Shown: positions 13,055 through 16,932 of the stretch, in pieces | Layout of the letters: the number at the start of each line of letters is the position of its first letter | How positions within the stretch are numbered: position 1 is the first letter of the stretch | Assembly (NCBI GenBank): GCA_018830405.1 | Contig: JAHJSF010000070.1 | Coordinates: 1-17,858, forward strand | Source: Nitrospinota bacterium | GTDB taxonomy: Bacteria; Nitrospinota; Nitrospinia; UBA9942; JAHJSF01 | Direction of reading: 5' to 3' | Length of the DNA stretch: 17,858 nucleotides | The notes under the pieces: generated by a model | Seen by the model: the letters and a program-made list of their open reading frames with translations, nothing else | The model's database searches: none | Told to the model about the DNA's origin: nothing | Position numbers and translations under genes: made by a program

Positions 13055-13513
13055 ATGTCTGGTCAGCAAATAGATCCGGTTGATAATTTGGACGATGAAG
13101 AGAAGGGAAGGGAAGATGAACGGAGAATAGCCCAAAGAAGGCAGGGAAACGATATAGAGTCCCTGCAGCAGGAGGAGAACAGACGGGGCGGGGGAGACAG
13201 AAGGAAGGAAGAACGGAGAATAGCCCAAAGAAGGCAGGGGAATGATGTAGAATACCTGAAACATGAGGGGAACAGAAGAAGGGCGGATAGAAGAAGAGGT
13301 GATGGGGAGGAAACCATAGACCACACCCTGACCGATATGCTCAACAAGGGCCCCGATATGGACAAGGTAATAAAGATTGTCTTTACCAGGGTACTGTTTG
13401 TTATTGCCATGGCTATAATCCTGTATCATATCGCTGCCTATTTCATATTCCCCCGGAATTTGTTTAGGGGAGATTTTAATGACCTCAAGAAGGTAGAGGA
13501 TGTCAAAAAGTAG
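13055..13513 (+). CDS. Unrecognised Arg-rich tandem-repeat protein with one membrane helix
   Basis: I do not recognise this gene. The 152-aa product begins with an acidic stretch, then carries two copies of a 31-residue unit (residues 22-52 and 53-83) with the shared core ERRIAQRRQGND and a trailing NRR...DRR. The units are nearly identical at DNA level (13118-13146 and 13211-13239), so the duplication looks recent or homogenised. A single hydrophobic segment follows at about 107-132 (VLFVIAMAIILYHIAAYFIF). The protein ends with a short charged tail. No signal peptide is seen, so the Arg-rich part is probably cytoplasmic, with the helix as a late anchor. The RBS GGGAGGA near 13043-13049 is strong. 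The SPOR-domain gene follows after 40 nt. A role near nucleic acid or acidic lipids is only a guess from charge. Confidence 0.75.
   Translation: MSGQQIDPVDNLDDEEKGREDERRIAQRRQGNDIESLQQEENRRGGGDRRKEERRIAQRRQGNDVEYLKHEGNRRRADRRRGDGEETIDHTLTDMLNKGPDMDKVIKIVFTRVLFVIAMAIILYHIAAYFIFPRNLFRGDFNDLKKVEDVKK
13118..13303 (+). repeat. In-frame 93-bp tandem duplication (two copies)
   Basis: Two units with a 93-nt period (31 codons) start at 13118 and 13211. Their first 29 bases, including AGAATAGCCCAAAGAAGGCA, are identical, and similarity fades through the rest of each unit. They encode the Arg-rich repeats of the surrounding gene. Confidence 0.85.
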
Positions 13514-15256: not shown

Positions 15257-15302
15257 TACAACCCCCTTATTCCCCCTTAACAAAGGGGGATAGGGGGTTG
15301 TA
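15257..15302. repeat. Compound palindrome, single-core member of the C5TT/AAG5 family
   Basis: Perfect outer arms TACAACCCCC (15257-15266) and GGGGGTTGTA (15293-15302) enclose an inner hairpin CCCCCTT (15272-15278) / AAGGGGG (15283-15289). The outer arms share ACAACCCCC with the array between gltB and gltD, but here there is one core instead of four. Confidence 0.9.
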
Positions 15303-15374: not shown

Positions 15375-16250
15375 CTATAGGAAGATATCGGCAATTGCCG
15401 CCAAGGATATCAGAATACTTACCAACCCATTAACCTTGAAAAAGGCGACATTCACCCTTGAAAGGTCGTCCGGCCTGACTATGGAGTGCTCATAGGTAAG
15501 GAGGCTGGTCACCAGAAAAAGCCCCGCAAGATATATCCCCCCAAAAAGATTATATAAAAAGTAGAGTGACAGAAGAAATAGGAGCATCACTATATGAAAT
15601 ATGGAGGAAAGCCGGAGAGACCTCTCTATTCCATAAGAAGCGGGGAAGGAAAATAGCCCTGCCCTCTTATCAAAATCAACATCTTGGCAAGAATAGATGA
15701 TATCAAGCCCGGCCAGCCAGAAAATAATAGCCAGCATCAGGATGACAGACTTGGCCGATATCTCCTCTCTAACGGCCACCCAAGCCCCGACAGGGACAAT
15801 CCCCAGGGCCAGACCAAGAAAAAAATGGGAATAGGGGGTAAACCTCTTAGTAAGGGAATAGCCGAAGATTATCAGAAGGGCTATTGGAGAGAGTTTTAGG
15901 GTAAGGGGATTCAGCATGTAGCAGGAAAATTCAAAGAGGAGCACGGCCAGTAGAAGAAAGAATATATATTCCCCCATAGCAGCTCTGCCGGAGGGGAGCG
16001 CCCGTCCGGTTGTCCTGGGATTCTCCCTGTCAAATTTCATATCAACCATACGATTAAAGACCATCGCCCCGCTCCGTCCCCCAGCCATGGCCCCCAGAAT
16101 CCAGATAATAACAGAGAGAGGCGGAACCCCCTCGGCAGCCATAAAGGCGGCCATAAAGGCAAAGGGAAGGGCAAAAACGGTGTGCTGTATCTTTATGTCC
16201 TCAAATAAAATTTTGGGTCTTCGCGTAAGAGTGTGGGTGATTTTTTGCAT
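15375..16250 (-). CDS. UbiA-family polyprenyltransferase, probably for menaquinone (MqnP-like)
   Basis: This integral membrane enzyme attaches a polyprenyl chain to an aromatic acid in quinone synthesis. The first Asp-rich motif is NRMVDMKFD (N66, D70, D74), followed by RENPRTTGRALPSG. The second is GLDIIYSCQDVDFDKRAGL (D183, D190, D194). Eight to nine hydrophobic segments span the 291 aa. The IKIQHTVFALPFAFMAAF start and the YSCQDVDFD motif resemble the UbiA subgroup seen in organisms using the futalosine menaquinone pathway, so an MqnP role is likely. No other mqn gene is present to confirm it. AGGAG (16258-16262 on the complement) lies 7 nt before the ATG. Codons 5-15 lie within the left arm of a 33-bp inverted repeat, and the upstream side is occupied by a repeat-flanked nuclease gene. 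Confidence 0.9.
   Translation of the reverse strand: MQKITHTLTRRPKILFEDIKIQHTVFALPFAFMAAFMAAEGVPPLSVIIWILGAMAGGRSGAMVFNRMVDMKFDRENPRTTGRALPSGRAAMGEYIFFLLLAVLLFEFSCYMLNPLTLKLSPIALLIIFGYSLTKRFTPYSHFFLGLALGIVPVGAWVAVREEISAKSVILMLAIIFWLAGLDIIYSCQDVDFDKRAGLFSFPASYGIERSLRLSSIFHIVMLLFLLSLYFLYNLFGGIYLAGLFLVTSLLTYEHSIVRPDDLSRVNVAFFKVNGLVSILISLAAIADIFL
16206..16238. repeat. Left arm of 33-bp imperfect inverted repeat
   Basis: This arm matches the reverse complement of 16794-16826 at 29 of 33 positions without gaps. That includes an exact 18-bp run (16206-16223) and an exact 8-bp run, GTGTGGGT. It lies within the first codons of the prenyltransferase gene. Confidence 0.85.
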
Positions 16251-16269
16251 TTTTATTCTCCTAATAACC

Positions 16270-16303
16270 TCCCCCTTTGGAAAAGGGGGATTGAGGGGGA
16301 TTT
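16270..16303. repeat. Left flanking palindromic repeat of the DUF559 unit
   Basis: TCCCCCTTT (16270-16278), loop GGA, AAAGGGGGA (16282-16290) form a 9-bp hairpin, followed inward by TTGAGGGGGATTT. Read inward, it matches the reverse complement of 16724-16759 almost throughout apart from C/G-run length. It lies 20 bp upstream of the ubiA-like start. Confidence 0.88.
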
Positions 16304-16316
16304 TCAGGGGTTACCT

Positions 16317-16337
16317 GCCTGCGCGCGACGCACAGGC
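16317..16337. repeat. GC-rich hairpin downstream of the DUF559 gene
   Basis: GCCTGCGCG (16317-16325) pairs with CGCACAGGC (16329-16337) with one C-A mismatch and a CGA loop. It is 18 nt past the DUF559 stop on the - strand. No T-tract follows, so it may be a REP-like palindrome rather than a terminator. Confidence 0.55.
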
Positions 16338-16355
16338 GGAGGGGAGATTTTATAA

Positions 16356-16703
16356 TCATGGCTCACACCATATCTTTTCCAAAACTGCATCGAGATTCCC
16401 CAATACCTCTCTATCAGAAAACCTAAGAACAGTTATTCCCGTTCTAATCATATAATCATCTCTCTTTTTGTCTTTTTCCTTTCCTTCCGTGCTATAGTGC
16501 TGCCCGCCATCAACCTCAATAACTAGCTTTAATTTCGGACAATAAAAATCAGCAATATAACTACCTATAATCTTCTGTCTATAAAACTGACATCCCTTTA
16601 ACTGTTTACCCCTGAGTTTTGCCCATAGCAACGTCTCTGCATCTGTCATGTTTCTTCTTAGATTTCTTGATATCTGTTTCAGGCTTTTATTATACGAAAG
16701 CAT
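16356..16703 (-). CDS. Stand-alone DUF559 (Vsr/PD-(D/E)XK-like) endonuclease-domain protein
   Basis: The 115-aa product is a complete DUF559 protein. It opens with ISRNLRRNMTDAETLLWAKLR, the usual family start. The nuclease core is YIADFYCPKLKLVIEVDGGQH, with D52, E63, D65, Q68 and H69 as candidate catalytic or metal residues. It ends with GITVLRFSDREV. DUF559 belongs to the very-short-patch-repair-like nuclease fold. Its cellular substrate is not known to me. No methyltransferase or restriction partner is adjacent. The gene sits alone between two inward-facing copies of a palindromic repeat (16270-16303 and 16724-16759), with only about 20-70 bp between gene ends and repeats. All key residues are intact, so it appears functional. 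Confidence 0.88.
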   Translation of the reverse strand: MLSYNKSLKQISRNLRRNMTDAETLLWAKLRGKQLKGCQFYRQKIIGSYIADFYCPKLKLVIEVDGGQHYSTEGKEKDKKRDDYMIRTGITVLRFSDREVLGNLDAVLEKIWCEP

Positions 16704-16723
16704 AGAGCCGCCTCCCGGTTTTC

Positions 16724-16759
16724 AAATCCCCCCTCACCCCCCTTTTCTAAAGGGGGGGA
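16724..16759. repeat. Right flanking palindromic repeat of the DUF559 unit
   Basis: CCCCCCTTT (16737-16745), loop TCT, AAAGGGGGG (16749-16757) form a 9-bp hairpin. The inward side reads AAATCCCCCCTCA. It is the inverted counterpart of 16270-16303, so the DUF559 gene has matching ends of about 35 bp in terminal-inverted-repeat orientation. Confidence 0.88.
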
Positions 16760-16793
16760 TTACCACTATAGTAACCCTTTTCATGAAGATTTT

Positions 16794-16826
16794 ACCCACA
16801 CATATACACGAAGACCCAAAATTTTA
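16794..16826. repeat. Right arm of 33-bp imperfect inverted repeat
   Basis: ACCCACAC (16794-16801), 7 partly differing bases, then the 18-bp exact block starting CGAAGACCCAAAATTTTA (16809-16826). It is the inverted counterpart of 16206-16238, inside the non-coding gap after the radical SAM gene. Confidence 0.85.
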
Positions 16827-16932
16827 AACCTATTTCTTTGTAACATATTTCTCGAGACATACGATTTCCCCATATATGGTTTAATGAACTTACTCCATAA
16901 TGGTTTTTTCAGCTGGTTAGATTTTGATTCGG

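Follow-up and report, generated by a model that had tools for sequence, protein, structure and literature searches.

A DUF559 nuclease gene between triplex-coded repeats: a possible enzyme for the BoxC/PIT/TM repeat family

The window analysed here (the whole stretch of 17,858 nucleotides of contig JAHJSF010000070.1 from a Nitrospinota bacterium) carries a small mobile unit in which a DUF559 gene is enclosed by two inverted triplex motifs (TM). This unit is inserted into the 5' end of ubiA. The features are listed in the order of their coordinates, with the basis of each assignment in brackets.

1657-1800, no strand assigned: gene-free TM array of four hairpins with a 34-bp period and outward tails at both ends (scanner)
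15260-15300, no strand assigned: gene-free two-sided TM, tail'-hairpin-tail (triplex-motif scanner)
15375-16250, minus strand: present-day ubiA, whose N-terminus MQKITHTLTRRP comes from the end of the inserted unit (ORF, Pfam, joined flanks)
16207-16214, no strand assigned: left copy of the target-site duplication, 8 bp, AAAATTTT (read directly)
16215-16238, plus strand: left terminal inverted repeat (TIR) GGGTCTTCGCGTAAGAGTGTGGGT, ISL3-type (sequence comparison)
16248-16260, minus strand: ribosome-binding site (AGGAG) and new ubiA ATG, both from the inserted unit (sequence, frame)
16270-16303, plus strand: TM on the 3' side of the DUF559 gene (triplex-motif scanner, score 19)
16356-16703, minus strand: DUF559 gene, 115 aa, predicted nuclease of the EDxHD/Vsr fold (ORF translation, Pfam, structure prediction)
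16724-16757, minus strand: TM on the 5' side of the DUF559 gene, tail facing the gene (triplex-motif scanner)
16794-16817, minus strand: right terminal inverted repeat, GGGTCTTCGTGTATATGTGTGGGT on the minus strand (sequence comparison)
16818-16825, no strand assigned: right copy of the target-site duplication, 8 bp, AAAATTTT (sequence comparison)
16826-16846, minus strand: original 5' end of ubiA, now separated from the gene by the insertion, with its ATG at 16846-16844, MLQRNRF... (joined flanks compared with relatives)

The reading frame at 16356-16703 on the minus strand matches Pfam family PF04480 (E 2e-35), and the inverted repeats around it (16265-16303 and 16724-16762) are 82% complementary. 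Within each 34-bp flanking repeat, a pyrimidine arm is followed by a purine arm, a turn of 3 nt and a purine tail in mirror order to the arm. The copy at 16270-16303 comprises a C-rich arm, the G-rich arm AAAGGGGGA, the turn TTG and the gene-facing mirror tail AGGGGGATTT. The triplex-motif scanner reported nine units in the window, among which the two copies at the gene scored highest; locally shuffled windows gave a mean of 0.11 units when any score was counted. A preliminary description of this DNA had placed a 115-aa DUF559 gene between two inverted repeats, and reading frame, Pfam match and scanner all agree with this arrangement. It had also noted a hairpin with an adjoining 'GAGGGGGATTT' segment. 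Both are present, but the segment appears to be more than an accessory and matches what the third strand of an intrastrand triplex with mirror code would look like.

The flanking repeats share the arms, the short turn and the mirror tail (G.GC, A/T.AT) of the BoxC/PIT/TM repeats. To judge from their sequence, they are a fold-back triplex code and identical in kind with these known, enzyme-less elements. BoxC/PIT/TM repeats have been on record since the 1990s, and in E. coli genomes they are markers of unstable spots. Triplex folding in vitro has been shown for the E. coli motif by Holder et al. (2015, PMC4666352); according to the same authors, no mobility gene lies near these repeats and the flanking genes share no common function. 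Rfam contained no family matching the window. The DUF559 unit was also considered as a defence system, a candidate that we rejected: PADLOC gave just weak nuclease-fold domain matches to other defence proteins. Elsewhere in the window (13107-13276), a 77-bp near-tandem duplication (84%) lies within an ORF at 13055-13513.

The preliminary description had treated the hairpins as the borders of the mobile unit and had looked for its empty site in the interval from ubiA to the radical SAM gene. Neither view holds. The ends are the 24-bp ISL3-type inverted repeats at 16215-16238 and 16794-16817, they delimit 603 bp (16215-16817) between the two 8-bp copies of AAAATTTT, and the 5' end of ubiA is interrupted. 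When the flanks were rejoined with a single copy of AAAATTTT, an open frame ran through MLQRNRFKILFEDIKIQHTVFALPFA, which agrees with the ubiA start in relatives (MLKRFKIILEDIKIQHT...), and therefore the unit interrupted codons 8-10 of ubiA. The AGGAG and ATG with which the present gene starts are located inside the end of the unit. ISL3 insertion makes 8-bp target duplications, and an ISL3 element in the same genome ends with GGCTCTTCGCGTAAGAGTGTGGGT beside pieces of PF01610 (ISL3 transposase); the left TIR of the window unit differs from this end by one base. Reading frames and Pfam indicated no transposase within the 603 bp, and in its TIR match, its 8-bp duplication and the absence of a transposase of its own the unit conforms to an ISL3-type MITE. 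Most likely, the ISL3 transposase of this genome acted in trans and inserted the unit into ubiA. Because of the ISL3-type TIRs, the 8-bp duplication and the presence of an ISL3 element with nearly the same TIR in the genome, this jump needs no action of DUF559. Several ISL3 copies of this genome (G000) end at contig edges (C7, C21, C44, C56, C62, C82, C110, C137, C148), and therefore the assembly is probably broken at this insertion sequence.

The same outer ends with an 8-bp repeat of their own (TATCTTTT) are present at a second locus (L051). A further DUF559-TM unit with ISL3-type ends, in a relative (L251, G004:C98:1-900), interrupts a CRISPR array at one of its repeats or next to one. The ends and target duplication of the window unit, the ISL3 element in its genome and the same outer ends at L051 and L251 are what one would expect if DUF559 were mere cargo in small elements that depend on conventional transposases for movement (in this case ISL3 in trans) and if the TMs were independent of it and accumulated nearby. 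We regard this explanation as improbable, since most of the 80 DUF559 loci described below have TMs and no ISL3-type outer ends, yet hardly any gene except DUF559 is flanked by TMs there.

The genome also contains related DNA without the gene. The preliminary description had reported gene-free relatives of the flanking repeats, which are real (1657-1800, 15260-15300) but represent a tail'-hairpin-tail sub-variety with the tail AGGGGGTTGT and are not direct copies of the repeats flanking the gene. It was right in expecting a gene-carrying copy with gene-free derivatives, as of an autonomous element with non-autonomous ones. On three other contigs of this genome (C27, C41, C167), MITEs retain the outer ends of the window unit, the TM, the segment GATTTGAAAAC preceding the start codon and the last DUF559 codons with the trailer (ATATGG...GATTATAAAATC), and the gene body is gone. 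In the C27 copy, the stretch from the outer left end through the TM is nearly unchanged. Going by the parts retained, these MITEs are internal-deletion derivatives of the gene-carrying unit. In two other genomes (G058, G028), each gene-free unit is a pair of hairpins whose tails point outward and whose spacing hardly departs from 61 bp. Gene-free facing pairs in G041 and G044 have two different end types each, and all nine short facing pairs listed for these genomes combine one AAAGAGGG end with one AAAGGGGG end.

These pairs bear on the possibility that TMs are local terminators, insulators or self-regulatory sites of DUF559 and that gene-free TMs are old remnants. The position of the TMs, within a few dozen bp of the DUF559 start and stop codons, would suit such a service. 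However, gene-free pairs retain both end types, as in G041 and G044 and in the five type A/type B pairs of E. coli (Holder et al., PMC4666352), and in work cited there PIT elements had neither promoter nor terminator activity in E. coli. Thus, we consider local service quite unlikely.

The arrangement is general. A set of 80 DUF559 loci from many phyla was taken GTDB-wide by protein alone. All enrichment figures refer to the strict triplex scanner (an earlier hairpin detector was looser). TMs were found on both sides of 57 of the 80 DUF559 genes and on at least one side of 76, whereas the corresponding numbers for control ORFs of at least 90 aa in the same loci were 2/606 and 57/606 (p 1e-61). 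Tails facing the gene from both sides were seen at 51/80 DUF559 genes and at 0/606 other ORFs; the orientation varies among the 80 genes, with 51 facing and 15 outward arrangements. The loci (1.07 Mb) contained 327 TM units, compared with 4 after local shuffling. Facing TM pairs at a distance of 200-900 bp numbered 56; the DUF559 gene used as query lay within 52 of them, and one of the four remaining pairs (L059) turned out to hold a second, unsought DUF559 gene (E 3e-43). An inverted-repeat score gave a similar picture: 65 of 79 DUF559 loci, one or two of which are runs of masked bases, exceeded a level reached by 75 of 8999 control positions. At two DUF559 domains located in long multi-domain ORFs of genomes related to that of the window (L044, L047), inverted repeats were absent. 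In the open-access literature we found no description of a link between DUF559 and these repeats.

Across loci, the tail of a TM mirrors the purine arm of the same repeat: G stays G, and A either stays A or becomes T. This is the rule of purine-motif triplexes. Examples of arm and tail are GGGAGAAGG with GGATGAGGG, AAAGGGGG with GGGGGATTT and AAAGAGGGG with GGGGAGATTT. In 171 repeats, the arm-tail mirror match was 0.90 and fell to 0.74 when the tails were swapped between loci (z 16.7), and the mirror rule fitted these repeats better than a direct-repeat rule. Repeat and protein covary as well. In a phylogeny of 97 DUF559 proteins, the TM arm class changed 9 times compared with a mean of 32.6 after shuffling (0 of 500 shuffles as low), a count of a kind that near copies inflate, on a tree with few well-supported branches. 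Single genomes nevertheless support the covariation: the three DUF559 genes of the window genome have different repeat types, each fitting its own clade, and the repeat types of the two DUF559 genes at L059 likewise fit their clades. This tracking of TM type with clade, even within one genome and one locus, also argues against DUF559 as cargo among independent TMs.

Among 60 genomes related to that of the window, 33 supplied DUF559 genes, mostly flanked by inverted repeats. Genome-wide counts were obtained by pattern searches with reversed-pattern controls: arm-plus-tail patterns gave 1397 matches in the 60 genomes and reversed patterns gave 1. TM half-units occurred in 26/26 genomes with a stand-alone DUF559 gene, and the 30 relatives without a detected one comprise 12 without and 18 with TMs (p 2e-4; 5e-5 in the comparison with Y1_Tnp below). 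The preliminary description had named DUF559 genes without the repeats, and repeats abounding where DUF559 is absent, as observations that would speak against its reading. Nearly all stand-alone genes in relatives carry repeats. On the second point, TMs occur in 18 of the 30 genomes without a detected stand-alone gene and in none of the other 12, set against their presence in all 26 with the gene. The 18 genomes may have lost DUF559, or the gene may have been missed through incomplete assembly.

Hairpin repeats with gene-free inverted pairs resemble REPINs, and Y1_Tnp is present in 26/60 relatives. TMs could therefore be REPs moved by a RAYT (Y1 HUH) transposase encoded elsewhere, with DUF559 being incidental. 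Against this, Y1_Tnp is missing from many genomes in which TMs and DUF559 are present (e.g. G025, G028, G037, G041, G044), 5 of the 26 Y1_Tnp genomes have no TM, the tails are not GTAG/CGTC tags, and the association of Y1_Tnp with TMs is weak (p 0.026 vs 5e-5 for DUF559). We rejected Y1_Tnp as driver on account of this weak association and regard a RAYT origin as highly improbable.

Beyond these relatives, TMs adjoin DUF559 on replicons of Deinococcus, Azospirillum, Synechocystis, Sphingomonas and Sinorhizobium, and no TM lies next to the DUF559 gene of Picosynechococcus pAQ6. A DUF559 gene of E. coli K-12, ycjD, is accompanied by BoxC at the 3' side only. Many TMs are remote from any DUF559 gene: viral contigs chosen by TM alone contained 3 DUF559 genes among 542 TMs, all at most 300 bp from a TM. 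Most facing TM pairs in these contigs enclose ordinary genes and the TMs are mostly intergenic to ordinary genes. With so few DUF559 genes, TMs alone do not predict DUF559. This scarcity is expected if gene-free copies dominate, and it is equally expected if many TMs have other origins. In some contigs (L411, L444, L471, L481, L489), the TMs lie between ordinary, apparently phage structural, genes.

Several comparisons indicate movement. Two loci (L049, L052) share a 438-bp unit with 97% identity in unrelated flanks, starting at the hairpin. A sub-family (L307, L312, L313, L319, L038) occupies unrelated sites with homology from AATCCAACCCTCCCC... and outward tails, and two of its copies lie in one genome with 90% identity. 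In both comparisons the elements have sharp edges at the repeats. In Alphaproteobacteria, the pheS-pheT interval holds the unit in some cases, a gene-free TM in one and nothing in three. As read from the aligned sequences, these three comparisons show gain or loss over time, which is a statement about outcome, not about mechanism. At L311 (G039:C46:4300-6164), a DUF559 unit is present as a tandem duplication with a period of 656 bp (98.5% over 800 bp), and repeats lie where the two copies meet. Presence or absence of ycjD in E. coli was unusable as an empty-site test because the eef efflux operon occupies this position in strains that lack ycjD; in L209 and L210 this operon lies between sapF and fabI. 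The DUF559 site of B. acaciae provided no clean empty site since other Bradyrhizobium carry other repeats at this position.

The structure of the DUF559 protein was predicted with a mean pLDDT of 90. The model resembled NGO0050, a DUF559 protein of Neisseria (Z 15.3), as well as I-Bth0305I, a homing endonuclease (Z 10.9), and Vsr (Z 9.9), and D52, E63, D65, H69 and D78 are invariant across 47 DUF559 sequences. In this predicted fold and in its conserved acidic and histidine residues, DUF559 corresponds to the EDxHD/Vsr nucleases. The family had been assigned to EDxHD before (PMC9403480), and YcjD to PD-(D/E)XK, near Vsr (PMC1189080). In a Caulobacter methyltransferase mutant, the SOS response depends on VsrA, a DUF559 protein that has been proposed as a mismatch-repair nuclease (PMC12907096). 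The VsrA-dependent response is consistent with nuclease activity of DUF559 in cells. The Vsr-like predicted fold and the proposal for VsrA would also suit a host repair enzyme that clears triplex or mismatch blocks and thereby neutralises neighbouring TMs without spreading them. However, one such enzyme should guard the whole genome from any position, and the gene-proximal TMs, the coexistence in one genome of several DUF559 genes that differ in TM type and the patchy presence fit a selfish unit better. We therefore consider the repair role unlikely, on a par with local service.

When compared with known systems, the repeats share with BoxC/PIT/TM the arm-arm-mirror-tail logic, the intergenic position and two end types often paired in inverted orientation, and in E. 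coli BoxC adjoins ycjD; the difference is that here a nuclease family is flanked by the repeats across phyla, with the repeat type tracking the protein clade. The comparison with REP palindromes drawn in the preliminary description is apt, and the link between DUF559 and repeats is general. REP/REPIN-RAYT systems have one dedicated gene between inverted palindromes and many gene-free single or paired copies, and DUF559-TM likewise shows the inverted palindromes around the gene together with gene-free genomic copies. In contrast, the enzyme is a DUF559 nuclease and not a Y1 HUH transposase (PF01797), the repeats are triplex-coded, and no GTAG/CGTC tag was found at the hairpin foot. With ISL3 insertion sequences and MITEs the window unit shares its 24-bp ends and 8-bp target duplication, but it carries the DUF559-TM cassette in place of a transposase. 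I-Bth0305I and Vsr resemble DUF559 in the fold and the invariant D/E/D/H/D positions, whereas DUF559 stands alone as a domain of about 115 aa and lacks the extended DNA-binding part of I-Bth0305I. Its units are paired with repeats and occupy many unrelated sites, which may set them apart from a homing endonuclease inserted at its own recognition site in one cognate allele.

We favour, with some confidence, a reading with two nested layers, an inner DUF559-TM unit of nuclease and repeats and an outer ISL3-type element in this lineage. It draws on the observed anatomy, the association and its statistics, the arm-tail and protein-repeat covariation, the ends, the target duplication, the restored ubiA start, the deletion derivatives and the predicted fold. 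Against it stand the variable orientation of the TMs, the many TMs far away from DUF559 genes, the 18 relatives that have TMs but no detected stand-alone DUF559 gene, and the presence of BoxC on just one side of ycjD. The inner layer would be a DUF559 nuclease with its own pair of intrastrand-triplex repeats, REP/RAYT-like without being a REP/RAYT system; such a role is likely. The nuclease would recognise the folded TM (hairpin plus third strand) when the DNA is single-stranded, for instance at replication forks, and would cut there, after which host repair would copy or move the TM-bounded DNA. The outcome would be many gene-free TMs and few gene-bearing units per genome. We infer from the sequence patterns that DUF559 binds or cuts TMs and thereby spreads them. 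A hydrolytic nuclease alone cannot join DNA, and so host repair or a transposase would be needed for copying; the ISL3 layer at this locus is an example. In the outer layer, an ISL3 transposase acting in trans would have inserted the cassette, as a 603-bp transposase-less element, into ubiA codons 8-10, and the end of this element gives ubiA its new ribosome-binding site and start codon. The wider proposition, that DUF559 is the enzyme of BoxC/PIT/TM, which reads a three-stranded DNA fold and spreads this fold with its own gene in many phyla, is put forward tentatively, with the chances slightly against it.

A repeat that has been an orphan for about 30 years, also in E. coli, is now tied to a candidate enzyme, and the presence of this nuclease family beside TMs in many phyla, with matching repeat types, makes it a concrete enzyme to test. 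E. coli K-12, with ycjD beside BoxC and 23 BoxC sites in all, is a system in which the idea is testable. A possible function would be assigned to a Pfam domain of unknown function, and DUF559 might be a natural protein reader of DNA triplexes. If true, these units would be a class of selfish elements distinct from transposons, RAYTs and homing endonucleases.

Two minor observations concern the DUF559 reading frames. Many DUF559 proteins, among them those of L001, L023, L034 and L027, extend into the repeat and have terminal tails such as PPLNPLPSREG or LTPALSRRERG; in annotated proteins, tails of this kind may be markers of translated TMs. On a Patescibacteria contig (L066:10001-10339), the DUF559 frame contains one stop codon when read with table 11.
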